22,422 bases of DNA from a virus: positions 1 through 22,422 of IMG/VR virus record IMGVR_UViG_3300038424_000215. One strand, 5' to 3'. How positions within the stretch are numbered: the first letter of the stretch is position 1; every line of letters starts with the position of its first letter. Of this stretch, positions 1,533 through 21,428 are shown one piece after another. The notes under the pieces were generated by a model. That model ran no database searches, had not been told where the DNA came from, and saw only the letters and a program-made list of their open reading frames with translations. The position numbers and the translations under genes were made by a program.

Positions 1533-2051
1533 ATGAGTAAGCCCTGCTCGATCTGCACATCACAAAGGTGCGGTGCGATTGATAAGGCCGTCGTATTAGG
1601 TGAACCTATTCGCACCATAGCGCACCGGGAGGGTATTTCGCGGTATGCTCTGATGCGGCACATAAAAGGGGGCCATGTTGCAGCCACCATCGCAAAGGCC
1701 AAGGATGCGAAAGAGGTCACCCGGGCCAACACCATTCTCCAGCAGGTTGACGATCTAAAAAAGGAGTTTAAGGATCTCATGAAGATTGCCAAGGAGGATG
1801 GGGACCGGGACTCCTTCATCAAGGCCGGCCGGGAGGTCTTCCGGGCTATCGAGCTTCTGGCAAAGGTGGCGGGGGAGCTCAATGGTGATGGTGTGCAGGT
1901 GACCAACCAGATTCTCATTCAGGAATCGAATCAACTGACCCAGATCTTCATGGAGGCATTGAGAAGTGAAATCGACCCCGAAAGCTGCCAGCGCGTCATC
2001 TCGTATCTTGAGAAACGCCGGGCAGCCCTCCCAGGCCCCGCGTCTGGCTGA
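1533..2051 (+). CDS. Terminase small subunit-like DNA-binding protein
   Basis: This is a 172-residue protein directly upstream of the large terminase gene. Its N terminus has a CxxC pair (C5, C8), then a helix-turn-helix-like stretch (residues about 24-45, GEPIRTIAHREGISRYALMR), then H43 and H48 in MRHIKGGH. This C..C...HTH...H....H layout is typical of many phage small terminase proteins that recognise the packaging site. A charged helical region (about 55-120) would support oligomer formation. The C terminus is Pro/Ala rich. The large-subunit gene begins inside this gene at GTG 1966, giving an 86-base overlap. Assignment rests on the motif plus gene order. The packaging-site sequence it binds is not identified here. 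Confidence 0.7.
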   Translation: MSKPCSICTSQRCGAIDKAVVLGEPIRTIAHREGISRYALMRHIKGGHVAATIAKAKDAKEVTRANTILQQVDDLKKEFKDLMKIAKEDGDRDSFIKAGREVFRAIELLAKVAGELNGDGVQVTNQILIQESNQLTQIFMEALRSEIDPESCQRVISYLEKRRAALPGPASG

Positions 2052-3603
2052 CCAGCTGGACCGCGTGATCAGCTCGTTCAAGGCAGGCCACCCCATCGCC
2101 GACATTCTCACCTTCTCGGAGGATCCCCGATATCTCGGCCGCAAACTCTACCCAGCCCAACGGGAAATCCTTGGGGAATTTTTTAACGGCCCGAGACCCT
2201 ATGAGGAGCTCCTCTTAATCTGCGGCCGGGATTCCACGAAGACCTTCACCGCCTCGATCATCGCGTCCTACATCGCTTACCTCTGGCTAGAAATTCCGGA
2301 TCCGTATTATCTCTATAGTGGGCGGGTTGACCGGGAGAAAGAGGTCCATATCATCTGCGTTGCCCGAAAGGAGGCACAGGCCACAATCCTCCTGGACGAA
2401 ATCAAAGCGAAGATCAACAGCAGCCCTTACTTCGCGGGGAAGATCCGCTCACAAAACAATTACGAGGTGGTGATAGAAAAGAATCTCCACATCCAAGCCG
2501 TCACCTCAAATAGCGCCTCGGAAGTCGGGAAGACGGCCATCCTCGTTCTCTTTGATGAGATCGGGAAATATGGTGAGGAGGTTGGAACCCGGGACGGCGA
2601 GGAGGTATACGACTCCCTCACGCCGTCTGTCGGGCGGTTCGCCTCCAACCGGCCCGAGTTCCTGAAGCGGTGCGCCGGCGACCCGGGCCTGGAGATGATC
2701 GTCCGAGCCCTCGGGAGGGTAGTGTCGATCTCCACCCCTATGGGGAAGAGTGGAATCCTCTGGCGGCTCTTCGGCACCGCCCAGCGCCTTCCATCCATCC
2801 TCCACTATCAGCGCCCGACCTGGGAGATGAACCCGAACTACCCGCCCGGGTGCGCCTACCTGGAGACCCAGAAGGCCAAGAACCCCCGGACCTTCCTGCG
2901 AGAATACGGGGCCAAGTTCGATGAAGCAATCGACGCGATGCTCCCGCCCGAGCTGGTCGATCAGTGTAGCGGGCCCACGCCACCCTACGACCATCAGATC
3001 GTCTATCATGGCGCAATCGACACCAGCCGCAAGAAGGACGCCTTTTGCTTCGCTATCGGGCACATCCAGGGGGGGAAGGTCTTCATCGACCTGATCCGCT
3101 ACTGGATACCCAAGGATGGCCGCCTCGAGTGGTCCCAGGTCCAATACGAGATCAAGCGGGCATGCCGCGCCTTCCAAGTAGAGGACCTCCTCCATGATGG
3201 CTACGAAGGGGAGGCCGTCAAGCTCTACTTCAACGAATTTCTCCTCCATGAGACGCCATTCACGCAGCCCTATAAGATGAAGATCTACGGGGCCCTGGAG
3301 GACCGCCTCTTCCAGCGGCAGATCCAGTATCCCCCGGACGAGCGTCTCCTCCGGGAGCTCAAAGCCCTTCAAAAGAAATGGAACGGCGAGAACTTCAGCG
3401 TCCACCATCCCGACACGGGCCCCATCCAGAACGATGACGGCCCGGACGTGATCGCCAATCTTGCCTTCCATCTCTTCTCTACCTTTGTCGCAACCAGGGA
3501 GGGGATCGATGACGACCGGGTTCAGGCCGGCGGGGAATACTGGCCGCTCGATCCGCGGGACGTTGAAACGACCGCGCTGATCGGTGGCGGGGGAAGTCAC
3601 TGA
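1966..3603 (+). CDS. terL: Terminase large subunit (ATPase-nuclease)
   Basis: This is the motor that pumps viral DNA into the capsid and cuts the concatemer. The 545-residue product has a terminase Walker A variant GRDSTKT at residues 87-93, a Walker B ILVLFDEI at 192-199 with the catalytic acidic pair, and an STP coupling motif at 256-258. The C-terminal RNase H-like nuclease starts at residue 346 with conserved D352 (YHGAIDTSRK), has a further acid near D411 (LLHDGYEG), and a last metal ligand around D490-D494 (NDDGPDVIANLAF). The GTG start at 1966 has GGAGG nine bases upstream and overlaps the small subunit gene. Length matches full-sized terminases. It is intact and sits at the head of the structural operon. 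Confidence 0.93.
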   Translation: MKSTPKAASASSRILRNAGQPSQAPRLADQLDRVISSFKAGHPIADILTFSEDPRYLGRKLYPAQREILGEFFNGPRPYEELLLICGRDSTKTFTASIIASYIAYLWLEIPDPYYLYSGRVDREKEVHIICVARKEAQATILLDEIKAKINSSPYFAGKIRSQNNYEVVIEKNLHIQAVTSNSASEVGKTAILVLFDEIGKYGEEVGTRDGEEVYDSLTPSVGRFASNRPEFLKRCAGDPGLEMIVRALGRVVSISTPMGKSGILWRLFGTAQRLPSILHYQRPTWEMNPNYPPGCAYLETQKAKNPRTFLREYGAKFDEAIDAMLPPELVDQCSGPTPPYDHQIVYHGAIDTSRKKDAFCFAIGHIQGGKVFIDLIRYWIPKDGRLEWSQVQYEIKRACRAFQVEDLLHDGYEGEAVKLYFNEFLLHETPFTQPYKMKIYGALEDRLFQRQIQYPPDERLLRELKALQKKWNGENFSVHHPDTGPIQNDDGPDVIANLAFHLFSTFVATREGIDDDRVQAGGEYWPLDPRDVETTALIGGGGSH

Positions 3604-3828
3604 ATGCCCTTTACGATTCTCGGCACGGAGCGGAAGGAGGTCTGCGAGATGGTCCTCCGAATCATGGAGGGGCTCGGCAACGAGGCGAAGACCGAGCTCC
3701 AGTCCATGAACGGCGATGAGACCCCGGGATGGTGGAGGGCCGTTGTAACCGTTGAATTCTACACGCACTACGATAACGAGCTCTCCCCCGCGATGCGGCG
3801 GACTCGGGACGGGAACGGCCATCTTTAG
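3604..3828 (+). CDS. Small hypothetical protein between terminase and portal
   Basis: ATG 3604 begins directly after the terminase stop, with a purine-rich stretch (GGGGGAAG) upstream inside the terminase gene. The 74-residue product has a helical first half (KEVCEMVLRIMEGLGNEAK) and a strand with aromatic residues (GWWRAVVTVEFYTHY). No family is recognised. Its stop codon lies inside the promoter of the portal gene, so it is probably the last gene of the upstream transcript. A head-assembly accessory role is only suggested by position. Confidence 0.55.
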   Translation: MPFTILGTERKEVCEMVLRIMEGLGNEAKTELQSMNGDETPGWWRAVVTVEFYTHYDNELSPAMRRTRDGNGHL

Positions 3829-3850
3829 ATTAATATAGTATAGCGGTGTA
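3824..3850 (+). promoter_or_regulatory. Archaeal TATA-type promoter for the portal operon
   Basis: This AT-rich stretch in otherwise GC-rich DNA begins TTTAGATTAATATAGTATAG and ends five bases before the portal start codon at 3855. A TATA element here would put transcription start near the ATG, giving a leaderless or very short-leader mRNA, as is common in archaea. There is no Shine-Dalgarno motif in front of this ATG, which fits. The same 27 bases recur with two differences upstream of the protease gene at 8738-8764. Matching twice at equivalent positions makes a promoter role much likelier than chance. Confidence 0.75.
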
Positions 3851-3854
3851 ATAC

Positions 3855-5363
3855 ATGGCTATGCGCGCAAGGGATCTCCATAGACAAAGGCAGGGCCGGG
3901 GGGATTCCGATGGAGAGGTCCGGGAGTTCCTGCTGGCCGCGGGCCTCATCACTTCGGACTTCAACCCCTCAAACCCCGTCGCCCCTCTTCTGAAGAATGA
4001 GAACTACCAGAACAAAGCCCTGGATACAGACGTCTACGGTGGCCGTAGAATCTCGTATTTCAACAAATACGACCGCTTCCAGCAGGTAGAGAAGATCAAC
4101 CCCCGGATCGGTGTCGGGCTCGTCAAGCTCGGCCTGCGCCTGCGCGGGAAGGAGTTCAAGCTCTTCGTTGACAAGAGCGCGGGGCTCGAAGGGGAGGCCG
4201 AGCAATCGATCCTCCAAGACGCGGGGGACTTCACCACGGCGCTCGATATGCAGAACTTCTTCACCGCGGCCGGCCGGCTCCTCGCCCGAGACGGCAGCGT
4301 CCCGATCCTGAATAGCGCCGATAAGCGCTTTGGCAACGGGGAGGGCATCACGACTCTTGACTTCATGCCGATGAGCCATACAACCTTCCTCCCTATCGAC
4401 GTGGAGCCCATGAGCGGGGTCCAGAACGAAGAGCAGCTCTGGGAGTATGCAACCATTATCGGAGGCGTTACCCAGGTCATCATCAACGAGCGGCTCCAGG
4501 CAAAGAGGGAGATCCACTACATGAAGAACGGCCGCGTGACCCTCATGCGGCTCATGCACCACGGCCATCAATGCCGCGATATCTACAACCGGAACACCAT
4601 CGGCCTTTATGGGGTCTCCCTGATGGAGCTCGTGGACGAGCAGGTCAAGAAGCTGGAGGATGTGAACTGGGGCTTCTCCAAGGCCATTGGACGATACGGA
4701 TACGGCCGCCTCCACATCGACAACGACCTCATGAAGCAGCGGATCCTGGATGACAAGCTCACGCTGAAGCAGGCCGCGAAGATCCTGGCAGCGGAGGCGA
4801 AGATTGCGAAGGGCATGAAACCCGACGAGGATATCATCAGCATCGGGAAGACCGTCCAGGCCATCCCGGGCGGCTTCCAGAACGCCTCCGGAGTCATCGA
4901 GTTCAAGGAGTCCCTGGAGCGCGATATCGCCTACGGCCTCCTGGAGACCGAAGCGGGCAGCGGGAAAGCCAAGGGGACGACCTTCGCGTCCTCCTACATA
5001 GCCGATATGGACGCGGTGCGGGTCCTCGAAGCGATGCGGATCCAGCTCAAGGTAGGCTTTGAGAAGATCTATCAGCAGCACCTCATCCTCCTCGGTTATA
5101 GCGAAGATGAGGCCAAGGCAATCCGGATCGAGCTGCAGCCCATCGACCAGCCACTCGTAGAACTCCCGACCCTTCTGGAAGTCGCCGCCCAGGACCCGAG
5201 CGCCCTGACCGTGCGGCAGGCCCTTGAAATTGTGGGGATCCATGTCCCACCCAGGGAGACCGTTGACAAGGAGGAGGGGCAGACCATCCAGGAAGACCAG
5301 AAGACCCCGGTCCCGGTCAACGTGGAGGTCAAGCCGGGAACCGCCCCGGGACAAAGGCCATAA
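3855..5363 (+). CDS. Portal protein
   Basis: This 502-residue protein has the position and character of the dodecameric portal, the ring at the capsid vertex through which DNA passes. Visible features are an N-terminal arm, a beta-rich wing domain (about 60-260, including LDFMPMSHTTFLPIDVEPM and a basic strand KREIHYMKNGRVTLMRLMHH), and a helical stem and crown region (about 260-420). In the stem, GLYGVSLMELVDEQVKKLEDV and the stretch ending LETEAGSGKAKGTTFASSY resemble the conserved stem and tunnel-loop region of archaeal and Mu-like portals. The C terminus is Pro/Val/Lys rich and probably disordered. It follows the terminase genes and precedes the MuF-type protein, the classical order. It has its own promoter. 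Assignment is by context and overall pattern, not by a single motif. Confidence 0.82.
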   Translation: MAMRARDLHRQRQGRGDSDGEVREFLLAAGLITSDFNPSNPVAPLLKNENYQNKALDTDVYGGRRISYFNKYDRFQQVEKINPRIGVGLVKLGLRLRGKEFKLFVDKSAGLEGEAEQSILQDAGDFTTALDMQNFFTAAGRLLARDGSVPILNSADKRFGNGEGITTLDFMPMSHTTFLPIDVEPMSGVQNEEQLWEYATIIGGVTQVIINERLQAKREIHYMKNGRVTLMRLMHHGHQCRDIYNRNTIGLYGVSLMELVDEQVKKLEDVNWGFSKAIGRYGYGRLHIDNDLMKQRILDDKLTLKQAAKILAAEAKIAKGMKPDEDIISIGKTVQAIPGGFQNASGVIEFKESLERDIAYGLLETEAGSGKAKGTTFASSYIADMDAVRVLEAMRIQLKVGFEKIYQQHLILLGYSEDEAKAIRIELQPIDQPLVELPTLLEVAAQDPSALTVRQALEIVGIHVPPRETVDKEEGQTIQEDQKTPVPVNVEVKPGTAPGQRP

Positions 5364-5386: not shown

Positions 5387-5740
5387 ATGGAGTTTCTTGT
5401 CCGATTTGTCCGGGATGTCCTTGACCGACTCAAGGGATATCCCAAACCGGCAGCCCCCATCATGCCGGCGCCGGTTATCGAGAAGAAGAAGGTTGCTAGC
5501 CCCCCAATCATAGAGCGACAGATACTTCGAAGAGCTACACAAGGCACGCCCACCCCAGCAATCACCCATAGCTTAGGGGCAACCCCCACCGGATGCTTAG
5601 TTACCCCCTCATTAACAAACACCTCGGTCGATGTAGTGGGCTTGACATCTACAACCTTCCTCATCAATGGGACAAAGACCGGAACCACGACATACACTGC
5701 CATGACATCACAGACGATTTACTGGGAATGCTGGGTATAA
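5387..5740 (+). CDS. Short beta-rich virion surface-type protein
   Basis: ATG 5387 follows a clear GGAGGT site. The 117-residue product has three parts: an amphipathic basic N-terminal helix (MEFLVRFVRDVLDRLKGY), a Pro/Lys linker (about 20-50), and a beta-rich C-terminal domain with ITHSLGATPTGCLVTPS and a TSTTFLIN stretch ending IYWECWV. That last pattern (xHxLGxTPT..VTP...TTFxxN...YWE) is seen at the C-terminal ends of many phage fibre and head-surface proteins. The second half of the gene is relatively rich in A and C and uses codons unlike its neighbours, such as ATA, suggesting recent acquisition. It might be a head fibre or decoration anchored by the N-terminal helix. The exact role is not known. 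Confidence 0.55.
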   Translation: MEFLVRFVRDVLDRLKGYPKPAAPIMPAPVIEKKKVASPPIIERQILRRATQGTPTPAITHSLGATPTGCLVTPSLTNTSVDVVGLTSTTFLINGTKTGTTTYTAMTSQTIYWECWV

Positions 5741-7207
5741 ATGACCTGTATCCTCTGTGTCATCCACGATCCGGACGGCGGCCCCAACTACATCGCGGAC
5801 CTTGCGCGGGCGGCCCGGATCCCGCTGGAGATCTCCCGCGGCTATGAGGAGGACCTCCCGCACCCAGGCCCAGGGGATCGGGTCCTCCTCATGGGGGGAA
5901 AGGAGCCCCCGGAACGGCAGCCCTGGTTTGAGAAGGAGCAGGCCCTCATCACCTTCTGCAGAAAGGCGCGGGTCCCGCTCTGGGGGGTATGCTTCGGGGG
6001 CGAGATGATCGCCCTCAATCTCGGGAAGGCCCTGGAGCGGGAGAGCCATGAATACGGCTGGCGGGAGATCTCCATCCAGGGGACGCGCTCCCACGTCTTC
6101 GAGTGGCACGATGAGAGCTTCGGGCTCCCGAAGGACTGCCATCCCCTCGCCCGGGATATCGAGCTCGGCCATGTCCGCGGCTTTACTTGGGACAACTTCG
6201 TGCAGGCCGTCCAGTTCCATCCCGAGCAAACGCTCGCCAGACTCAAGGACTGGACGGACGATGACCCGCGGGTAATGGGCCCCGCCTCTGACTATCTACT
6301 GGAGTCCCAAGTGGTATGTAGGGCCCTTTTTGCGCGGTTTATCGGGCTCCAATCCCCAGCGGAGCAAACGGAGCCCCTGGTGGCCTCGAATAAGCGCAGG
6401 CTCGTCCAGCGACCGCACGGCCTTGATCCCGACCTGAACCGCAAGGAGTATCTGCTCGGCCGAGCCCTCCAGCGGAACCTTCAGAGAATGACCGAGGGGG
6501 TGGATGTGGAGGCCCCGACCGCGGCCCAGGCGCTCAAAGGATTCACTGCACATCGGAAGATCCTCCAGGGGAAAGAGTTCCGGAACCTCATCTACCAGTA
6601 TACCTCGCAGACCGTCCTCCAGGGGGCCCATCACGCGGACAAGATGATCCTCCGAGCGAGACCTCGCCGGCGAGTGGGTGGGGCCGTGACCCGGGCCAGC
6701 GCGGACTTCGGGAAGCTCATCGACCGGATGACCTTCCACACCGTCGACCACTTTGACCGCATCGCGGACGACCTGAAGGACCGGCTGACCGATACCCTTC
6801 AGGAAGGTTTCGATGGGGGGGAAGGGATCCCGGATCTCCGGAACCGCATCCAGGAGGCCCTCGGCATCGACAGCCGGCGGGCGACCGAGCGGGCCCGGAC
6901 CCTCACGATGGAATCCTTTAATCAGGCGCATATTGTCTCGTATACTGAAGTCGGGGCCCCTGGCGTGGAGTTCCTGGCGGGCATAGACGAGCGGACCTGC
7001 GAGATTTGTGGGGACCTCAACGGGACAATCTTTGCCCTGGATGACGAGGATATGGTCCGGCCGCCCGTTCATAACTTCTGCCGCTGCACCCTTGCGCCCT
7101 ACTTCGGGGATCTCCCGGACGATACCGGGGACGTGAGCCCAGATACCCGGGACTTCTGCGCGGATTGGCGAGACAACTACTTCGATATCCCGCTCTTCTC
7201 TGCCTAG
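5741..7207 (+). CDS. Fusion of class I glutamine amidotransferase and MuF/SPP1 gp7-type head protein
   Basis: This 488-residue protein joins two unrelated domains. Residues about 1-200 form a class I glutamine amidotransferase like the GuaA glutaminase unit (COG0518). The nucleophile motif is GVCFGGEM with C84, a strand EWHDESFGLP matches the family's H-x-D-x-F-x-LP motif, and the catalytic His and Glu are H160 and E162 in AVQFHPEQ, so the triad looks complete. Residues about 230-488 form a MuF/SPP1 gp7-type minor head protein: a long helical region, then the signature TCEICGDLNGTIF (C420, C423, D425) and PPVHNFCRCTLAP (H444, C447, C449). MuF proteins bind the portal region inside the head and can be ejected with DNA. 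The gene begins directly after the preceding stop. No synthetase or amidoligase partner for the glutaminase is seen nearby. Confidence 0.88.
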   Translation: MTCILCVIHDPDGGPNYIADLARAARIPLEISRGYEEDLPHPGPGDRVLLMGGKEPPERQPWFEKEQALITFCRKARVPLWGVCFGGEMIALNLGKALERESHEYGWREISIQGTRSHVFEWHDESFGLPKDCHPLARDIELGHVRGFTWDNFVQAVQFHPEQTLARLKDWTDDDPRVMGPASDYLLESQVVCRALFARFIGLQSPAEQTEPLVASNKRRLVQRPHGLDPDLNRKEYLLGRALQRNLQRMTEGVDVEAPTAAQALKGFTAHRKILQGKEFRNLIYQYTSQTVLQGAHHADKMILRARPRRRVGGAVTRASADFGKLIDRMTFHTVDHFDRIADDLKDRLTDTLQEGFDGGEGIPDLRNRIQEALGIDSRRATERARTLTMESFNQAHIVSYTEVGAPGVEFLAGIDERTCEICGDLNGTIFALDDEDMVRPPVHNFCRCTLAPYFGDLPDDTGDVSPDTRDFCADWRDNYFDIPLFSA

Positions 7208-7233: not shown

Positions 7234-7243
7234 CTTTAAATAG
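7234..7243 (+). promoter_or_regulatory. TATA box of the winged-helix/pentamer cassette
   Basis: The sequence CTTTAAATAG lies in the AT-rich gap after the MuF gene, with its centre 27-28 bases upstream of ATG 7267. This matches a canonical archaeal TATA box at the right distance for transcription to begin at or just before the start codon. No ribosome binding site precedes the ATG, in line with a leaderless mRNA. It would start transcription of the winged-helix gene, the pentamer array and the RAMP-like gene independently of the head operon. Confidence 0.7.
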
Positions 7244-7266: not shown

Positions 7267-7767
7267 ATGGAAAATCCGACGGAGCTAAAACTTTACCCCC
7301 CTTCGCGTGAACTTGCCAGGGTAGCGGAAGGATGGACCTACGGATCGACGCATACGCATTCCGAGATCGCGGAGATCCTCGGTATCCCGCAGCAGGAAAA
7401 CACCTATTATCAGGCCGTTTCGGATGCCAACGAAATCCTCCTCCCGAAGTCAAAAATGATCAGAAACGTGCGAGGGGTAGGATATCTCGTGGTGAACCCG
7501 GATTCCTACGAGGACGTATCCTATGATCGGGTGAAGAAGTCAAAGGAATATCTCCTCCGGGCCTGTGAGATCGCGCAGTATGCTCCCCGGGAGGAGATGA
7601 CTCCAGAGGACCGGGCGCGGTTCGACCGGTATGTTGTGGGCCTTGGCACCAGGGCGGCCCTCTTCATGCGGGAGTTCGAGTCCAAGCAGGTGATCTCCGG
7701 CCCGATGAAGATCCGGCTCTCCGAGAGGCGGCCTTTGCAGCTGGAGAAGAAAGATGAACCGCAATGA
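7267..7767 (+). CDS. Winged helix-turn-helix protein
   Basis: This is a 166-residue protein. Residues about 25-78 look like a winged HTH: THTHSEIAEILGI as the first HTH helices, a longer helix QENTYYQAVSDANEILL in the recognition position, and a wing NVRGVGYLVV that resembles the OmpR/PhoB-type wing (VRGVGYRL). A helical C-terminal half (about 85-138), rich in Arg and Glu, could mediate oligomer formation. It ends with a charged tail. The gene is preceded by its own TATA box and followed directly by the pentamer array, so it may bind that array or the cassette promoter. The DNA-binding fold is inferred from the motif; the target is not known. Confidence 0.62.
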   Translation: MENPTELKLYPPSRELARVAEGWTYGSTHTHSEIAEILGIPQQENTYYQAVSDANEILLPKSKMIRNVRGVGYLVVNPDSYEDVSYDRVKKSKEYLLRACEIAQYAPREEMTPEDRARFDRYVVGLGTRAALFMREFESKQVISGPMKIRLSERRPLQLEKKDEPQ

Positions 7768-7792
7768 TGGGGCAACCCCGGAGCGGACGTAG

Positions 7793-7940
7793 CTTGGCTT
7801 CGCAAGGCTCGGTTGGGCTTGGCACGGCGCGGTTAGGTAGGGAATGGCGTGGTCTGGCGTGGCAGGGATTCCCTGGCTTGGTAGGGTAGGGTCCGGCTCG
7901 GCGTGGCAGGGTGTGGCTCGGCGCGGATTTCAAGGTAAGG
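7793..7940 (+). repeat. NNNGG pentanucleotide phased array
   Basis: GG dinucleotides recur every five bases on the + strand while the three bases between them vary, with the first usually a pyrimidine (YNNGG). Units in phase run from 7793 to 7867 (15 units, one of them ending CG instead of GG). An interruption of 9 bases, ATTCCCTGG, follows at 7868-7876. Ten more units occupy 7877-7926, then a second 9-base interruption ATTTCAAGG at 7927-7935, and a final TAAGG at 7936-7940. The start codon of the RAMP-like gene follows 9 bases later, so the array forms that gene's 5' leader and its last units act as ribosome binding site. It is preceded by a tiny GGGG-CAA-CCCC inverted repeat at 7769-7779. 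It has no coding potential on the + strand. Confidence 0.9.
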
Positions 7941-8524: not shown

Positions 8525-8722
8525 ATGGCGACGCATAACTGGCAGGTCAGCATCAACGCGAACGGGGCCGAAAAGACTGAATATGTCTACGTAGAGCTCC
8601 CCGGTGCGTATCTTTGGCAAATTGAACGCATTATCCAAGACCCCCGGTTCGGATTCGCTTCCCGTGAGGCATTCCTATTAGATGCAATCCGGCAACACAT
8701 CATCAAATACGACTTACAATAA
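8525..8722 (+). CDS. Ribbon-helix-helix-like small protein with tape-measure-like N terminus
   Basis: This is a 65-residue protein. Residues about 20-63 fit a ribbon-helix-helix DNA-binding domain: strand EYVYVELPGAYL, first helix LWQIERIIQD, turn RFGFASREAF, second helix LLDAIRQHIIKYD, as in archaeal CopG-like regulators. The first 16 residues (THNWQVSINANGAEK) instead match residues 463-477 of the tape measure protein (THNWQISINVSGAGK), and the DNA of the two regions is also alike (8531-8575 and 17359-17403). The gene therefore looks chimeric. It starts two bases after the RAMP-like gene and is the last gene before the repeated promoter at 8738, so it probably closes the cassette. Autoregulation is plausible but unproved. 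Confidence 0.6.
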   Translation: MATHNWQVSINANGAEKTEYVYVELPGAYLWQIERIIQDPRFGFASREAFLLDAIRQHIIKYDLQ

Positions 8723-8734
8723 TAAACGACTCCC

Positions 8735-8740
8735 TTTTTT
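8735..8740 (+). terminator. T-run terminator candidate
   Basis: Six consecutive T residues follow the last gene of the cassette by 12 bases, in CCCTTTTTTAG. Archaeal RNA polymerase commonly terminates at such U-tracts without a hairpin. It lies directly upstream of the TATA element of the protease promoter, so one transcript could end where the next is initiated. Confidence 0.4.
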
Positions 8741-8764
8741 AGATTTATATAGTATAGCGTTGTA
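8738..8764 (+). promoter_or_regulatory. Archaeal TATA-type promoter for the protease/capsid operon
   Basis: This 27-base element begins TTTAGATTTATATAGTATAG and differs at only two positions from the element in front of the portal gene (3824-3850). The TTTATATAG core, centred about 29 bases before ATG 8777, is a textbook archaeal TATA box. The start codon lacks a strong Shine-Dalgarno motif, as expected for a short-leader mRNA. It would drive protease, scaffold, decoration and major capsid protein genes, probably in step with the portal operon. Confidence 0.8.
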
Positions 8765-11157: not shown

Positions 11158-11475
11158 ATGCGGCGAATTTCCCTCATCCCTTACCGCTGCGCAGACGGTC
11201 AGTCCTACAAGGTGCGAGAATCCCTCGCAAACCTGCTCTTCCTCCCGACGCTCCAGCTCGGAGCTCGGGAGATCATTGAGCACGACCGGATCGCACGGAA
11301 GATTGAATCCGCGAAGGATAACGTGGTTCTCGAAGAGGCTGAGTTTGCCAAGGTCAAGCAGGCAATCGAAGCCTTCAAGGGATATGGTCGTGACGACCTC
11401 CAGCTCATCGCGCGGGTCATGGATGCGGCAGAACTCGACGCAAACACCAACGTTTCAAAAGGAGATGTGATGTAA
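11158..11475 (+). CDS. Small head-region protein, unknown
   Basis: ATG 11158 directly follows the decoration gene stop (TAAATG), and the gene ends just before the major capsid gene. The 105-residue product starts with a strand (RRISLIPYRC) and then is largely helical and charged, with EHDRIARKIESAKDNVVLEEAEFAKVKQAIEA split by short turns. Small helical proteins between decoration and capsid genes occur in Mu-like and related head operons, but I do not recognise this family. A chaperone or minor head role is a guess from position. Confidence 0.5.
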   Translation: MRRISLIPYRCADGQSYKVRESLANLLFLPTLQLGAREIIEHDRIARKIESAKDNVVLEEAEFAKVKQAIEAFKGYGRDDLQLIARVMDAAELDANTNVSKGDVM

Positions 11476-11476
11476 C

Positions 11477-12439
11477 ATGCCTATCGCACTTTCGGACCTG
11501 TATCCGGAATTCACGAACATGCTCATCCAGACCTACTTCTTCAAGGTCTATGACATGTATGTCCCGACCGACTGGGCGGACTTCACCCAGGTCCTTCCGT
11601 CAACGAAGGAAGCAGAGATCTACCCGACCCTCGGAGTGGTTCCGAAGATGTCCGAGTTCCGCGGCGAGCGGACCTTCACGGGCCTCGGGAACAAAGAGAC
11701 CTTCATGGTCCACAACAAGATGTATGATGGCGGCGTGAGCTTCCCCCTGACGTCCTTCCAGGACGACCAGTATGGGATCGTCTCCATGCGCATCGGAGAC
11801 CTCGCCATCGAAGGGAAGCGGTTCCCTACGGAGCTCGTCTACAACATCCTCCACAACGGGGCATCCGTCAAGGGCTACGATGGAGCCTACCTCTTCGCGG
11901 ACCACAAGGCAAAGGGCTCGGCCACCCAGAGCAACACCAACGGGACCTCGACGACCCTGGATGCGACCGGCCTGACCGGCGTCATCAAGGCCATGCGGAA
12001 GTTTGTCGATACCCAGGGCCGTCCGCTGAACATCGTCCCGGACACCCTCATCGTCCCGCCCGACCTCGAAGTCACCGCGGCCCAGCTCCTCAACACGACC
12101 TTCTTCATGGCGGTCGGAGCGAACACCTCCCAGAACGCTACGAGCGGTCAGGGGACGAGCATCGGCAACATCCCGACCTACAACCCCTTCGGCGGCATCC
12201 TCAAGCGGATGATCGTCAGCCCCTACCTCACGTCAACGACCGAGTGGTATGTGGCCTGCACGACCCGCATGACGAAGCCCGTCATCCTCCAGGAGAGGCA
12301 GCCCGTGACCCTCACGGTCAAGATGGACCCGTCCACCTCGGATAAGGTCCTCTCCAGCAACGAAGGGCTGGCATCCATCATCGCCCGGTGGGGCGCTGCA
12401 GCCGGCGACTGGCACACGGTCTTCCAGGGCTCAACCTAA
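11477..12439 (+). CDS. Major capsid protein, Mu gpT-like (HK97 fold)
   Basis: This 320-residue protein fits the Mu gpT-like major capsid family, in which the HK97-fold subunit lacks a long N-terminal delta domain. Visible family features are an N-terminal helix leading to YFFKVYDMYVPTDWADF, a central YDGAYLFADHKAKGSATQSN, then the segment GLTGVIKAMRKFVDTQGRPL followed by IVPDTLIVPPDLEVTAAQLL, and an MTKPVILQERQPV strand. The C-terminal part carries SNEGLASIIARWGAAAG, matching the gpT region where 'gvraR...' occurs. It follows the protease, scaffold and decoration genes and precedes the connectors. It is full length and probably the most abundant product of the window. Confidence 0.88.
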   Translation: MPIALSDLYPEFTNMLIQTYFFKVYDMYVPTDWADFTQVLPSTKEAEIYPTLGVVPKMSEFRGERTFTGLGNKETFMVHNKMYDGGVSFPLTSFQDDQYGIVSMRIGDLAIEGKRFPTELVYNILHNGASVKGYDGAYLFADHKAKGSATQSNTNGTSTTLDATGLTGVIKAMRKFVDTQGRPLNIVPDTLIVPPDLEVTAAQLLNTTFFMAVGANTSQNATSGQGTSIGNIPTYNPFGGILKRMIVSPYLTSTTEWYVACTTRMTKPVILQERQPVTLTVKMDPSTSDKVLSSNEGLASIIARWGAAAGDWHTVFQGST

Positions 12440-12445
12440 ACCCCC

Positions 12446-12469
12446 CTTCCCGTCTCTTTTTTCGGGAGG
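12446..12469 (+). terminator. Hairpin after the major capsid gene, overlapping the next ribosome binding site
   Basis: A 7-base-pair stem (12446-12452 with 12463-12469, one G-U pair) encloses a ten-base T-rich loop TCTCTTTTTT. The 3' arm CGGGAGG contains the ribosome binding site of the following gene (ATG 12476). The hairpin could attenuate or partly terminate transcription after the capsid gene through its U-tract, or mask the next ribosome binding site. Either would keep capsid protein in excess over connectors. Its function is inferred from the sequence only. Confidence 0.5.
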
Positions 12470-12475
12470 ATCACC

Positions 12476-12895
12476 ATGACCCTAAGCTGGGCGAACATAG
12501 TAACGGCGCAGATTGAGACTTCATGCAGCACCAGCTACGACCTCACCACAATCGGGGGAAAGGTAGAGGCCGAGATCAAGGCCGAGCTCGATGTTAACGG
12601 GCTCGATACGAACCCCCAGAACGTCTCGCAGAGTGGCGTGGGCCTCCTCGTAACCGCGGCCCAGGCATGGCTCTGTCGGGATATCCGAATCCTCCAGAAA
12701 CACGACCAGACGATCCCGAATGCCATCCACGAGGGAACGCTCGGGATCGATGTGACCATCGACGCCTCCATCAAGTTCTACGCTGACAAAGGGCGGGAAG
12801 CCCTTGATAAGTATATCGCCGCCATGACAGGGACAAACGAAGACGACACGGGCGAGATTGCGGGCCTTCTCGCTCTCGCAGGGGAGGAGTTATGA
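12476..12895 (+). CDS. Head-tail adaptor-like protein
   Basis: This 139-residue, mostly helical protein lies directly after the major capsid gene. That is the usual place for the adaptor (gp6/gp15-type connector) that docks on the portal. It has short helices with conserved-looking turns (DLTTIGGKVEAEIKAELDVNGLD, then LVTAAQAWLCRDIRILQKHD) and a long C-terminal helix (DASIKFYADKGREALDKYI) with an acidic tail. Size and helix content fit that family, but no signature is unmistakable. Its start follows GGAGG in the hairpin at 12446-12469. The stop overlaps the next gene (ATGA). Confidence 0.6.
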   Translation: MTLSWANIVTAQIETSCSTSYDLTTIGGKVEAEIKAELDVNGLDTNPQNVSQSGVGLLVTAAQAWLCRDIRILQKHDQTIPNAIHEGTLGIDVTIDASIKFYADKGREALDKYIAAMTGTNEDDTGEIAGLLALAGEEL

Positions 12896-15980: not shown

Positions 15981-17484
15981 TGTTGAACTGGGGAACGTCT
16001 TCTATAACATCCTGGCGAAAGACCTTACTGGGGCGGGAACGTCAAGCGCAAAGGGGAACTTTGTAGCCGCGGGCCTCGCCATCAGCGCAGCCTTGACCGG
16101 GGTGGCGGTCGCCGCGGACGCCTTCATCGACAAGAATACGAAGCTCATGGGCTCCCTGGAGACAACTTCTCAAGAGACGGGGATCTCGGCCGATGCCCTG
16201 CGCTCCCTCACGATGAATCTGGCAAACGGGAAGGACACGATCGAGGAAGTCACCGCAACGATGGATACTCTCGGGAAGTTCGGAGTCACTACTGCAGACC
16301 AGATAAACACAGCAGCCCAGGCCGCGCTTGCTCTCGGGGATGCGAACAACACCACCGGATCGGATGTAGCGAACAATATCATCCCCGCGCTCCAGGCATA
16401 CGGCCTCACCGTGGACGACCTGGGAGCAAAGAGCGACGCTCTGACTGCCATCACGCACTCAACAAAATACGGCCTCGATGACATAACGAACATACTTACC
16501 CGGGCAGCCCCAACCGCGGCCGCGGCCGGTCTCTCCTTTGATGACATGACCCAGATGATCGAGGCAATGGGGCTGAAGGGGATCCCCGCCCGGAACGCCG
16601 TTAACCTCCTAAATACTAATATTAAGGAACTGGCCAAGGCCAACAAGGACGGCAAAGTAACTTTTGAGGAGCTCACGCAGAAGCTCGGCATCACCAGCAC
16701 GACTCTCACTGAAGCAACAGGGAAGATGAATGCCGCCGCGGGATCCACTGCGGCCTATAATGACATCGCCCAGACCCACATCGGGATCATGGCGAATATG
16801 GCGAGCTGGTGGGAGAAGACCTCACTTGCCGTAGGTGACGCCCTGACCCCCTACTCGGGGATCTTCCAAACCCTCACAGTTATCGCTCCGATCATGACGG
16901 CCGTGAATGGGCTCCTCATGCTAAACAACACCCTGAACATCACGGGAGCCATCGCCACCCAGGGAGCGGCCGCTGCACAGTGGCTCCTGAACATCGCCCT
17001 AGACGCGAATCCCATCGGCCTTGTTGTCCTCGCCGTGGCGGGGCTTGTCGCGGGGATCTACTTCCTTGATCAGCAGTTCCACTTCATCCAGCCAACCATA
17101 GACTTCATTCTCGGTCTCTTTACGAGGCTCTGGGACGTCATCCAGGGGGTCGCGGGTGCGATTGCGAGTATCCCTGGGGTCGGGGCCCTGATCAGTGGGA
17201 TCGGTTCGGTTGCGGGCATGCTCGCTTCAGGGGGTTCCGCGCAGCCCGGCCAGAGCTATGTTGTCGGGGAGAGGGGGCCCGAGCTCTTCAGGCCATCCAC
17301 CCCCGGGACGGTGATCCCAAACTCGGCTCTGGCGAACACCACCAACAACGCGGGGGATACGCATAACTGGCAGATCAGCATCAATGTGAGTGGTGCCGGA
17401 AAGAGCGGGAAAGATATTAGCAAGGAGATCGCCGCCTCTCTCAGGACGGAGATGCGGCAGCGCGGAATTCCCACGGGAGGCTGA
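15973..17484 (+). CDS. Tail tape measure protein
   Basis: This is a 503-residue protein with the standard tape measure layout: an N-terminal hydrophobic Gly/Ala segment (about 30-52), long helical Ala/Thr-rich regions (LSFDDMTQMIEAMGLKGIPA at about 187-206 matches a common tape measure motif), and hydrophobic segments (about 300-315, and 345-366 in ANPIGLVVLAVAGLVAGIYF). The C-terminal motif SYVVGERGPELFRPSTPGTV is diagnostic of phage tail tape measures. Residues 463-477 match the start of the RHH-like protein at 8525. With roughly 1.5 angstrom per residue, the tail would be short (about 75 nm). It starts inside the preceding chaperone frame. Confidence 0.86.
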   Translation: MGDVELGNVFYNILAKDLTGAGTSSAKGNFVAAGLAISAALTGVAVAADAFIDKNTKLMGSLETTSQETGISADALRSLTMNLANGKDTIEEVTATMDTLGKFGVTTADQINTAAQAALALGDANNTTGSDVANNIIPALQAYGLTVDDLGAKSDALTAITHSTKYGLDDITNILTRAAPTAAAAGLSFDDMTQMIEAMGLKGIPARNAVNLLNTNIKELAKANKDGKVTFEELTQKLGITSTTLTEATGKMNAAAGSTAAYNDIAQTHIGIMANMASWWEKTSLAVGDALTPYSGIFQTLTVIAPIMTAVNGLLMLNNTLNITGAIATQGAAAAQWLLNIALDANPIGLVVLAVAGLVAGIYFLDQQFHFIQPTIDFILGLFTRLWDVIQGVAGAIASIPGVGALISGIGSVAGMLASGGSAQPGQSYVVGERGPELFRPSTPGTVIPNSALANTTNNAGDTHNWQISINVSGAGKSGKDISKEIAASLRTEMRQRGIPTGG

Positions 17485-17846: not shown

Positions 17847-19319
17847 ATGACACTCCCCGCGAAAGCCTACGAGATCCGGGTCTCCCGCACCCTCCAGGAC
17901 TCTTACTACAAGGCCGACCTCCTCGTCGATGGATGGGCCGATTACGCCGCGTGGTCCCAGGTCGAGGTTGACATGCTAGACTACACGGGAACCACGCAGA
18001 AGGTCTTTCTGGGGATCCTCCCGTATGCAACTCATAAAATGGTGGAAGCGGAGAACAAGACCACCTTGGCGGCTTACTCCTATGACTACTACCTCACCAA
18101 GAACCCCGTCCCGCGCTCGTTGTGGACCACGAACGGCACGAGCGACCCTGGGACGGTGATCACGGCTCTCCTCAACGCCATTGCGGTTTCTGGGGTTCCT
18201 GCGATCACCTGCGCCCGCTGTGACGCGACCCCCGGATGGGGGAGTACCCTCCCCTTGAAGCAGTTCAAGGCCACCGAGAAGACCACGATGATGGACTTCA
18301 TCAACGAGATCCAGAGATACTGCAGCATGCTCTTTATCGTTGAGAAGAAGGTCATTGGGGGAGTCCTCACGCCCGTCTGGTATTGGATTGCCGAGACCAC
18401 CTTGGACGCGGACCTTGATATCCTCCCTAGCCCCCTCACGCTCACGGCCGGCACAGACAACTACGTGGATTCCGAGGTCGGGATCGATATCACCACCCGT
18501 CCTGATGATAGCTACAACGGGGTCATCGCTCGGGGGACGGACTCCAGCGGGAACCTGCTTGAGAAGATTATCACCACGGGGGGGGTCCTCCCGGTGATGT
18601 ATATAGACCCCACGAACGCCGCCTACAATACTCAGGCCCTTGTGGACGCCCGGGCCGCCATGCTCTACTCATTCCTCACGAATATCCCCTACGTGTACAC
18701 CGCTGAGCTGATCGGCCGGACGGACCTCCGCCTTTACCAAAAGGTTAAGTTCGTGGGCTTCAAGGCCGTGGGGCCCGGCGGGGCAGAGACCGCGATCCCT
18801 GAGGTGTGGATGCGCGTCGTCGCTATCACGTACTCCATGAAGACCTCCGAGACGGAAATCGACATCCGGGCGATCATTCAGTTCACCGTTGACACCTACC
18901 TCTCGGACAAAAAGCTCCTCTTCCCCGTGATGGACTCCAGCGCGGTCACGGAGATCGGAAACCTCGTCAACTATGGGATCGGCCAGATTCAGATGCCGAA
19001 GATCGCAACCGTAACGGCCGTGGCGGGGGGCCTCGTGACAGTCAGCTCCCCAGATGGCACCACCACGATCGCCCTAGATGGTTACGGCTCCGGGAGCCCT
19101 TGGATTGAGGGATCCGGGGTGCCGGGCTCCGGGGATGGCGCAGATGGGGACTTCTATCTCCGAACCACCACGGGGGATATCTACTACCGGCAAGCGGGAA
19201 CATGGTCCTTGATTGCGAACATCAAAGGCACCGCTGGGACCAATGGCACGAATGGGACCAACGGCACAAACGGAGCCCCGGGAAGTGTCTGGTATGAGGG
19301 TTCTGGAGATCCATCATGA
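17847..19319 (+). CDS. Tail hub/tip protein with C-terminal fibre module
   Basis: This is a 490-residue protein. Residues 1 to about 385 have the feel of a baseplate hub/tail-tip protein (gp27/gp44-like): early strands KAYEIRVSRTLQDSYYKADL, a KTTLAAYSYDYYLTKNPV stretch, a helix EKTTMMDFINEIQRYCSMLF, and DDSYNGVIARGTDSSGNLLE. From about 425 it has a module shared with the next fibre gene, GADGDFYLRTTTGDIYYRQ and GTWSLIANIKG, then a collagen-like (GTN)n stretch at 460-475, then GSVWYEGSGDPS at the end. The stop overlaps the next gene's ATG (19316). It may anchor the fibre proteins. Confidence 0.7.
   Translation: MTLPAKAYEIRVSRTLQDSYYKADLLVDGWADYAAWSQVEVDMLDYTGTTQKVFLGILPYATHKMVEAENKTTLAAYSYDYYLTKNPVPRSLWTTNGTSDPGTVITALLNAIAVSGVPAITCARCDATPGWGSTLPLKQFKATEKTTMMDFINEIQRYCSMLFIVEKKVIGGVLTPVWYWIAETTLDADLDILPSPLTLTAGTDNYVDSEVGIDITTRPDDSYNGVIARGTDSSGNLLEKIITTGGVLPVMYIDPTNAAYNTQALVDARAAMLYSFLTNIPYVYTAELIGRTDLRLYQKVKFVGFKAVGPGGAETAIPEVWMRVVAITYSMKTSETEIDIRAIIQFTVDTYLSDKKLLFPVMDSSAVTEIGNLVNYGIGQIQMPKIATVTAVAGGLVTVSSPDGTTTIALDGYGSGSPWIEGSGVPGSGDGADGDFYLRTTTGDIYYRQAGTWSLIANIKGTAGTNGTNGTNGTNGAPGSVWYEGSGDPS
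19236..19271 (+). repeat. Four 9-bp repeats coding for GTN triplets
   Basis: Four tandem copies of GGNACNAAY (19236-19271) code for Gly-Thr-Asn units in the collagen-like stalk of the tail-tip protein. The third bases vary, so selection at the protein level is more likely than recent slippage. Copy number may change readily. Confidence 0.75.
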
Positions 19320-19978
19320 CAAAGAAGGGGATAATCTTCATGGATAACCTAGGAAATACAGTTCTCCTTCAGGACCTCACCCCGGCGCATATCGGGGATG
19401 TGGGGGCTCTCTTCAATAATGTCTCCGGGCAGCCGGTCTTCATCAAGGCCGGGGCCTCGATGGTCGGGGATCGGGGTGCCCTAGTCCCATCCTCCTCCGG
19501 GCTGCCGCGGTTCATCCGGGCGGGTTCCACAGGGGCCAACGTCGTTATCGACCCCTGCTTCGCTGCGGGAGAACCCCCTTGGACACAGCATCCTGAAACT
19601 ATCGGATTTGGTCTCGTAGAGTATGATCAAGCCGATGGCGGCGGGGGCTGTCCCACCCACGTAAAGTTATACAATATCCAGACCGGAGGAGTTGTTACTA
19701 TGTCAGCAGGAACCCATCAGACATTCACTCCGTTAAATGCCCGGACAATCTCCTTCTGGTATAAATTCACCTGCACGGGGACACCGGATGTTTGCAGATG
19801 TATAAGTAACCTCGGAACGATGGGGCCACTGATTCTTCCGCAGGAGAGTGACTGGACCAAGGTAACTCTTACCGGGCCCTTTATAGGATTGGCAAATATT
19901 GGGTTCCAATACGGCCAAGCTTGGCCGGTTACGATAACCGGGGAGTTTGACGTTTCGGGGGTCTTCGTATGTGGGTGA
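19316..19978 (+). CDS. Fibre-associated protein with jelly-roll-like domain
   Basis: This is a 220-residue protein whose start overlaps the stop of the tail-tip gene (ATGA). Residues 1-75 contain two alike units (HIGDVGALFNNVSGQPVFIKAG and MVGDRGALVPSSSGLPRFIRAG). Residues about 78-220 form a beta-rich domain, with VVIDPCFAAGEPPW, RTISFWYKFTCTGTPDVCRC and DWTKVTLTGPFIGLANIGFQ, much like the carbohydrate-binding jelly-roll domain (ISFWYK/FSFWYK) in the next gene. Several cysteines occur. Its DNA, especially 19600-19950, is more AT-rich than neighbours. The gene splits two copies of the same module and so looks inserted. Receptor binding is inferred. Confidence 0.62.
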   Translation: MTKKGIIFMDNLGNTVLLQDLTPAHIGDVGALFNNVSGQPVFIKAGASMVGDRGALVPSSSGLPRFIRAGSTGANVVIDPCFAAGEPPWTQHPETIGFGLVEYDQADGGGGCPTHVKLYNIQTGGVVTMSAGTHQTFTPLNARTISFWYKFTCTGTPDVCRCISNLGTMGPLILPQESDWTKVTLTGPFIGLANIGFQYGQAWPVTITGEFDVSGVFVCG

Positions 19979-19982
19979 TGAG

Positions 19983-21428
19983 ATGACGGGAATCAATGGC
20001 GATTACTACTTAAAAACCACCACCGGAGATGTTTACCAGAAGCAGTCCGGGGCCTGGGTGCTCATCGGGAACATCAAAGGCGCGAATGGGGCTCCCGGTG
20101 CGCATGGGAGTGTCTGGTATGAGGACGCCGGCCCGCCGGGCTTCGGGATCGGAGACAACGGCGATTACTACTTGGACACAACCACCGACGACGTCTACTA
20201 CAAGTCGGGCACATGGTCGGTGATCGCCAACATCAGGGGCGCGGCGGGCGTCGTGGGTAGTGTCTGGTACGAGGGCTCCGGAGCTCCGCCTACGGGCAAC
20301 TACGTGGTCAACGGCGGATTCGAGACGGGCGTCCTCACGCCATGGGTGGACAATTCCAACGTCGGGGGTTCGGTCAACGTCGGCGGGAGCTATGCCCACA
20401 CGGGTTCATATGGAGTGCAGGTCCTCGACGTGATCATCTACGGGGCGCTCAACCCCGACACCTCGGAGATCTATCAGGATCTCGGGGCGGTGCCGATATC
20501 GCAGCCGTTCTCATTCTGGTACAAGATCATCTACTCCAGCTGGACCTACACGGCACATGTGACGGTGACTATCTCGGACGAGTCTGGCACCCCGCACTCG
20601 GAGACCCTGCTCGATCTCACCAACCCCGACATCGGCGACTGGATACATGTGACCGGCACAACCGTGAGTGCCTACGAGGCGGGCCGTCTGCATGTGAAGA
20701 TCGTTGCGTCCGCGGCGAGCGACGATGGGATGGAGGTCTTTGAGGTGGACTCCGACGACTTCTCCATCGGGAGCGGGATCGGCGTTGATGGAGACTACTA
20801 CCTCGACACTGATAACGGGGACGTCTATCACAAGGAGAGCGGGACATGGGTCCTGATCGGGAGCATTAAGGGAGCCACGGGGCCGGCGGGTCCGAATGAC
20901 ATCACTACGAGCACCACTACCAACCTAACGGGAATCCTCGAAGGAGATGGGAGTCATGTCGGGGCAATCTCCCCCTCAGCTCCAGGGTCGGGCCTGAGAA
21001 GTGTTGTGGGCATTGACCACGGTGATACGGCCTTCTCTGAGAAAGCCTTGCTTGATACCACAAACCCGGCCGACCTCGGGACGGCCGGCCCTGGGACTCA
21101 GCTGGTGGCAGCAAGAAGAGATCACATCCACACCCTGCCGAAGCTTGACGACCTCGCCGCGCCCGACGACGGCACGGACCTCGACGCCACGACGTCCCTG
21201 CACGGTCTCTCCAAGAAGGCGACTGCCCCGGCCTCTGGGCTGCTTAGCGTGCTCGCCATTGGGAATGGAGAGACCGCCCGCTCCGACAAGGCCATTTTCG
21301 ACACCACGAACCCCGCGATGGATGGAACGGCGGGCCCCGGGACGCAACTCGTGGCCGCGAGAAGGGATCATGTCCACCCATCAGATACGTCCCGCGCGAT
21401 GCGAATATTTTCATTCTTTATAGGATGA
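19983..21428 (+). CDS. Modular tail fibre protein
   Basis: ATG 19983 is chosen because GGTGAT lies just upstream; TTG 19947 and GTG 19971 are in-frame alternatives. The 481-residue product has module copies GINGDYYLKTTTGDVYQKQ...NIKG, then GSVWYEDAGPP, GDNGDYYLDTTTDDVYYKS...NIRG and GSVWYEGSGAPP. A jelly-roll carbohydrate-binding-like insert follows (residues about 103-260, NYVVNGGFETGVLTPW, HTGSYGVQV, FSFWYKIIY), then another DGDYYLDTDNGDVYHKE module. The C-terminal end has two 51-residue repeats (20979-21131, 21225-21377), each ending GTQLVAARRDHxH. The HxH motifs may bind metal in a trimeric fibre. It is a probable receptor-binding or stalk component. Confidence 0.78.
   Translation: MTGINGDYYLKTTTGDVYQKQSGAWVLIGNIKGANGAPGAHGSVWYEDAGPPGFGIGDNGDYYLDTTTDDVYYKSGTWSVIANIRGAAGVVGSVWYEGSGAPPTGNYVVNGGFETGVLTPWVDNSNVGGSVNVGGSYAHTGSYGVQVLDVIIYGALNPDTSEIYQDLGAVPISQPFSFWYKIIYSSWTYTAHVTVTISDESGTPHSETLLDLTNPDIGDWIHVTGTTVSAYEAGRLHVKIVASAASDDGMEVFEVDSDDFSIGSGIGVDGDYYLDTDNGDVYHKESGTWVLIGSIKGATGPAGPNDITTSTTTNLTGILEGDGSHVGAISPSAPGSGLRSVVGIDHGDTAFSEKALLDTTNPADLGTAGPGTQLVAARRDHIHTLPKLDDLAAPDDGTDLDATTSLHGLSKKATAPASGLLSVLAIGNGETARSDKAIFDTTNPAMDGTAGPGTQLVAARRDHVHPSDTSRAMRIFSFFIG
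20979..21377 (+). repeat. Two 51-residue repeats ending in HxH
   Basis: Copies at 20979-21131 and 21225-21377 code for units that are 37 of 51 residues identical by direct count. Both contain DTTNPAxxGTAGPGTQLVAARRDHxH. The spacer between holds a DDGTDLDATTSLHGLSKKAT segment. Histidines in HxH order, as in T4 gp37 and similar fibres, may hold metal on the trimer axis. Confidence 0.8.

Follow-up and report, generated by a model that had tools for sequence, protein, structure and literature searches.

The plus strand of the window, by which we mean the whole stretch of 22,422 nucleotides analysed here, carries at 5741-7207 a single uninterrupted ORF of 488 aa (ATG at 5741, stop codon at 7205-7207). 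Its N-terminal part is a glutamine amidotransferase (GATase) domain and the remainder is a MuF/gp7 minor head protein (Table 1). The initial annotation had read this ORF as a one-frame fusion from the sequence alone, and both domains were found to exceed the curated cutoffs of their families at exactly defined coordinates. The fusion gene lies near the portal gene, between the terminase and capsid genes, as is the case for the MuF family.

Table 1. Features around the GATase-MuF fusion gene (window coordinates).
Feature	Position	Strand	Basis or remark
Terminase large subunit	1966..3603	+	phrog_9 6.2e-22, phrog_2 2e-20
Probable archaeal promoter (TTAATATA at 3830-3837)	3819..3850	+	Repeat D4, TTWATATA
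Portal protein, 502 aa	3855..5363	+	Position after TerL and before MuF; no Pfam/PHROG match
117-aa ORF upstream of the fusion	5387..5740	+	Stop abuts the fusion start (TAA/ATG)
GATase domain	5741..6358	+	Residues 1-206; PF00117, invariant columns, VIA-align model range 1-206
Possible internal start (GGAG, 6 nt, GTG at 6380, V214)	6370..6382	+	MuF of the relatives begins here
Complete MuF/gp7 minor head protein	6380..7207	+	Residues 214-488; PF04233, TIGR01641, phrog_2841
Probable archaeal TATA box (TTTAAATA)	7235..7242	+	28-29 nt before the next gene, ATG at 7267
Major capsid protein (Mu-like gpT)	11477..12439	+	PF10124 1.9e-40

A second viral record, G001, contains the fusion gene letter for letter, differs at other sites, and is without ~175 bases of the 117-aa ORF upstream of the fusion. 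G001 is probably from the same virus population and is hence regarded as a replicate and not as independent support. GC3 is alike in the two halves of the gene (0.82 in the GATase half and 0.79 in the MuF half), and thus the composition does not flag the GATase as a recent insert. The 117-aa ORF gave no family match in profile searches; its GC3 is 0.57 vs ~0.8 in the neighbouring genes, and it may be a recent insert. An assembly chimera or a frameshift that merged two genes might be suspected because no earlier report of the two domains in one frame was found. However, the identical gene in G001, the matching GC3 of the halves, and two divergent full-length fusions, L029 (40% identity) and L052, contradict such an artefact. 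The divergent fusions already refute it, and its remaining probability is negligible. The sequencing error that had been raised as a possible origin of the fusion was excluded on the same evidence.

The GATase half was matched by PF00117 at residues 46-166 (E 2.2e-8; 34.4 bits vs the Pfam cutoff of 22.8), and the same family scored 46.4 bits in L029 and 47.7 bits in L052. Alignment placed C84, H160, and E162 on columns that are invariant in cellular class I GATases, which confirms the complete class I triad proposed initially; further residues on invariant columns are H9, G52, P61-W62, E66, G82, G86, G95, G106-W107, W122-H123, P130, and Q158. The nucleophile C84 is within GVCFGGE, and H160 and E162 are within Q158-F-H160-P-E162, so that the Cys-His-Glu triad sits in GxCxG and QxHPE contexts. 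An AlphaFold2 model built from five sequences (mean pLDDT 72, GATase core mostly about 70-89) predicted a complete class I GATase fold for residues 1-206, and structure prediction, which had been suggested as a check on this domain, agrees with the alignment at the level of the fold. The highest VIA-align Z scores of the modelled domain were obtained with stand-alone class I GATases: 24.9 to 3m3p, 24.1 to TM1158 (1o1y), 23.9 to DnfC (8khs), 22.6 to MsGATase (7d54), and 22.6 to Arabidopsis GGP1 (9k7i). These proteins share the whole fold of ~200 residues and the triad with the window domain at 16-24% identity, whereas GATases linked to synthetases ranked lower (Z about 20 and below). The GATase subunit of GuaA/GMP synthetase belongs to the same superfamily and has the same catalytic residues, but its Z score was 17-19, and the window has neither an ATP-pyrophosphatase domain nor a partner of this kind. 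The guaA_Nterm model (NCBIfam) gave 24.1 bits, far under its cutoff of 172, and membership in GuaA was rejected. The label GuaA-like given at first should thus be replaced, as the domain groups with stand-alone GATases. Peptidase_C26 (PF07722, cutoff 20.5 bits) scored 17.3 in the window, 20.5 in L052, and 32.0 in L029, and these matches cover the nucleophile surroundings only. Two GATase matches in INPHARED were rejected as viral relatives: that of an Acinetobacter 'phage' is adjoined by ribosomal protein genes, and that of a Listeria 'phage' is of the same kind as a match in a 2.9-Mb Listeria record.

The MuF half was matched by PF04233 (Phage_Mu_F) at residues 349-451 (E 5.3e-15; 56.6 bits vs the cutoff of 29.6), by TIGR01641 (phageSPP1_gp7, NCBIfam; 2.9e-20; 72.7 bits vs 39.65), and by phrog_2841 (3.7e-20). 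In the related viruses L014 and L017, the gene directly 3' of the portal gene codes for a MuF protein without a GATase (287 and 295 aa, respectively). Residues 220-487 of the window protein are co-linear with nearly the whole MuF protein of L014 (46% identity), and residues 214-488 with nearly the whole one of L017 (50% identity). These end-to-end alignments and the two family matches establish that the MuF/gp7 domain is full, as had been claimed, and the presence of the same MuF protein minus the GATase in relatives indicates that a whole MuF protein acquired the GATase at its N-terminus. C-terminal to the PF04233 match there are only ~37 residues, and the added domain is N-terminal, unlike the layout of MuF polymorphic toxins. 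A dual start may yield a short GATase-free MuF from the internal GTG. However, a GGAG-type motif precedes 3 of the 17 internal in-frame start codons and is not conserved in L029 or L052; given how often the motif arises by chance and its lack of conservation, we treat the dual start as a weakly suggested possibility.

The portal protein is 75, 65, and 63% identical to its counterparts in L014, L017, and L018, respectively, and 52% identical to that of L029. In L018 (373-3520) the portal is followed by an ImmA/XRE-like protein and not by MuF, so that the portal-MuF order is broken there. The portal gene is probably the first of the unit that holds the fusion. Repeat D4, a 32-base sequence present at 3819-3850 and 8733-8764 (88% identity), lies upstream of the portal and zinc-ribbon genes. 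TTWATATA occurs twice vs 0.18 times expected, and TTTAWATA twice vs 0.07 expected. The TATA-like boxes at 3830, 7235, and 8744 precede genes at 3855, 7267, and 8777, a spacing that fits archaeal promoters (roughly 20-30 bases expected). The ORF after the fusion has 166 aa and a putative promoter of its own. No comparable ORF lies directly after the L029 fusion, and the L052 fusion is followed by an ADP-ribosyltransferase (ART)-like ORF; a conserved downstream immunity gene was not seen across the three fusions.

Several other repeats were observed in the window. Four imperfect repeats of 54 bases (19137-20834; 61-76% identical to the reference copy) run through the genes at 17847-21428, which include one with a match to a carbohydrate-binding domain, and these repeats are possibly from a fibre. 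A 46-base repeat (85%) occurs in a small ORF (8531-8576 within 8525-8722) and at the 3' end of the tape-measure gene (17359-17404). G-rich short imperfect direct repeats are found at 7780-7930, between the genes at 7267 and 7950.

A search for other GATase-MuF fusions, as recommended initially, was carried out with alignments of the MuF and GATase domains against 2.9 million viral contigs. At least three distinct viruses, namely that of the window, L029, and L052, were found with the short patterns used, which make this count a lower bound, and the fusion is rare. L029 (3300009548_000008, 53 kb) encodes a 505-aa fusion with 40% identity across residues 1-487. L052 (3300032156_000008, 60 kb) encodes a 914-aa fusion directly after the portal, and its terminase and portal differ from those of the window. 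The L052 fusion consists of a GATase at 38-159 (PF00117, 1.9e-12), a minor head/MuF region at 301-404 (phrog_115, 3.3e-12; PF04233 under its cutoff), a JAMM-like motif at 502, and topoisomerase IB (PF01028, 2.4e-22), and the next ORF has a weak match to an Alt-like ADP-ribosyltransferase (phrog_802, 1.1e-3). The motif GHxAxNPDMxRDExGK/R...GG precedes the JAMM-like and topoisomerase IB domains and recurs in the Alt-like ORF (L052:5998-9631); it may serve as a tag of effector modules or as a site for processing. A genome scan with a single protein as the query detected no relative, and the scan with the fusion alignment returned MuF matches only. The GATase and MuF matches in 345 archaeal genomes were separate, with no fusion among the matches listed.

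When placed in a tree together with 21 cellular homologues, the GATases of the three viruses formed one clade with support of 99/97; the tree has several long branches, and the placement of the clade among cellular GATases is not settled. The viral domains differ from the cellular homologues in the Glu that replaces Gln at Cys+4, in the loop after GW (10-11 vs 16-23 residues), and in the fusion to MuF. At an identity of 33-44%, the three viral domains still share the triad and the substrate-site residues around it. The two halves gave conflicting identities: the window protein is 44% identical to L052 in the GATase and 22% in the MuF half, whereas the values for L029 are 33% and 49%. This conflict indicates that the GATase module probably moved among MuF scaffolds, or was lost from some, with its catalytic residues retained. 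Such a pattern, as read from these sequence comparisons, is what one would expect if the GATase were a mobile effector module under selection.

Together, the window and the record G003, which overlaps it, make up a genome of ~39.5 kb, and its 61 ORFs were scanned for partner enzymes. The family scan recognised no synthetase, amidoligase, or ATP-grasp family in these 61 ORFs. The early remark that no synthetase partner is nearby therefore holds for both the window and G003, and the proposed examination of linked amidoligase or synthetase genes had the same outcome over the ~39.5 kb. No amidoligase was present among the best 25 of 27 family matches in G006 or the best 25 of 39 in G007. G003, which contains the rest of the virus, encodes a ParB-like protein and two DNA methyltransferases (L022:2017-3354 and 11247-12664).

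Of 340 genomes in the archaeal phylum to which a euryarchaeote belongs, 12 were matched by the portal profile of the virus group (best E 2.5e-44), vs none of 338 in the phylum of a Bacillus. The best archaeal portal match, in G160, has a MuF gene beside it, and genes for an MCM helicase and PKD-repeat proteins are present in the sister virus G006. Based on the portal matches, the TATA-like boxes, and these proteins of G006, the host of the window virus is probably an archaeon, an assignment made at the phylum level. Since the host is probably archaeal, an attack on a bacterial cell-wall polymer is unlikely, and the initial proposal that the enzyme acts on glutamine-containing envelope polymers lost ground accordingly. 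L052 encodes DNA polymerase A and Prim-Pol, which makes a bacterial host possible for it. In archaea, MuF proteins extended at the C-terminus by HExxH-type or JAMM-like domains were also observed (L067, L072, L076, L082), and these extensions are likely to be further packaged enzymes.

We propose, with about an even chance of being correct, that the fusion protein of this tailed virus is a gamma-glutamyl hydrolase or glutaminase effector that is carried in the virion and delivered to the host. The portal of SPP1 has been shown experimentally to place gp7 inside the procapsid (PMC6316719), and toxins on gp7-like proteins are thought to be delivered (PMC5576092). By analogy with SPP1 gp7, the MuF half would bind the portal and put a few copies inside the procapsid, and the GATase would exit the head together with the DNA into the new host. 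There it would work without a synthetase: a gamma-glutamyl intermediate would form on Cys84, activated by H160/E162, and would be resolved by hydrolysis of glutamine or a gamma-glutamyl compound. We infer packaging, ejection, activity, and the preference for direct hydrolysis over ammonia transfer. Direct hydrolysis appears most economical because the nearest folds are stand-alone GATases, one of which is a gamma-glutamyl peptidase. Packaging and delivery remain the natural reading of the MuF context, as stated initially, although the GATase is N-terminal whereas the described MuF toxins are C-terminal. The effector proposal is also favoured by the extra enzyme domains predicted in the L052 fusion and by the Alt-like ORF next to it. 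On the other hand, the described MuF effectors are C-terminal fusions, for most stand-alone GATases of this class no function is proven and some may act with partner enzymes that are not linked to them, a host synthetase could be the partner, and the fusion is rare (three distinct viruses in 2.9 million contigs). A wider and rather improbable version is that class I GATase effectors packaged in heads form a mobile family in archaeal, and perhaps bacterial, viruses and cleave a gamma-glutamyl compound in a cell that has just been infected. Archaea have gamma-glutamyl coenzymes, such as F420 and methanofuran, which are possible targets; a defence-related metabolite is a possible alternative.

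The same fold would serve a true amidotransferase that supplies ammonia to a host or viral synthetase or amidoligase modifying nucleotides, DNA, or protein, with MuF as a location or carrier. Some phages indeed pair a GATase with amidoligase and ATP-grasp genes, as found in LUZ24-like and OM43 phages (PMC3890496, PMC10580990). However, the GATases of those phages are class II (PF13522), not class I, the scan of the 61 ORFs found no amidoligase, ATP-grasp, or synthetase family, and the window domain sits among structural genes on a head protein, and we consider this unlikely. It is similarly doubtful that the GATase is active in the producing cell late in infection, or acts on viral proteins as they assemble, and that MuF only positions it in the procapsid. 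The fusion belongs to the portal unit, with which it would be expressed, and the MuF family participates in head morphogenesis; but relatives with the same portal and MuF do without the GATase, which is thus not required for assembly, a function in the cytosol would not call for attachment to a head protein, and the GATase is found on differing MuF scaffolds. If the domain were not catalytic, it could be a binding module or a structural spacer in the head. The retained fold and the stand-alone relatives, whose function is mostly not established, would allow this, but it is quite improbable given that three viral domains of 33-44% identity have all preserved the triad and the substrate-site residues.

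Like the window fusion, the MuF polymorphic toxins and effector fusions described previously (PMC5576092, PMC3482391, PMC5512222) combine MuF with an enzyme, are encoded next to the portal, and are predicted to be packaged and delivered. In those proteins the enzyme is C-terminal, whereas it is N-terminal here, and the window fusion differs further in that no conserved downstream immunity gene was seen and in being from a probable archaeal virus. The LUZ24-like phages also encode a glutamine amidotransferase, but theirs is a class II enzyme (PF13522) with an early gene of its own, next to which lie amidoligase and ATP-grasp genes (PMC3890496), whereas that of the window is class I and, unlike theirs, linked to MuF. 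Alt of phage T4, an ADP-ribosyltransferase, is the type case of an injected head-packaged enzyme (PMC5512222); the logic of a head-packaged enzyme injected with the DNA is shared, but Alt is unrelated to GATases and has no MuF domain. The literature searched contained no paper on MuF with an amidotransferase or on a glutamine amidotransferase fused to a minor head protein, and the view of the initial annotation that this fusion partner is unusual was upheld. The term 'amidotransferase' does not occur in the text of PMC5512222 or PMC3482391, nor 'glutamine' in that of PMC5576092, and the T4 baseplate gamma-glutamyl hydrolase provided no usable precedent in the literature searched.

Head-carried enzymes act on the cell ahead of viral gene expression. 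Head-packaged MuF fusions are already known; the enzyme class found here is new among them and its position is unusual, as a class I glutaminase/gamma-glutamyl hydrolase fold is added to the MuF-fused enzymes at the N-terminal end. The fusion protein, with a single catalytic cysteine, is a defined protein for tests, and the signature GxCxG[GA]E ... QFHPE ... DWTxxDPxV ahead of a MuF domain can be used to find more. Three divergent viruses carry the fusion, and at least some of them are probably archaeal, where injected effectors are little known. If the proposed delivery is true, the fusion would be a novel type among injected viral enzymes, attached to the N-terminus of MuF.
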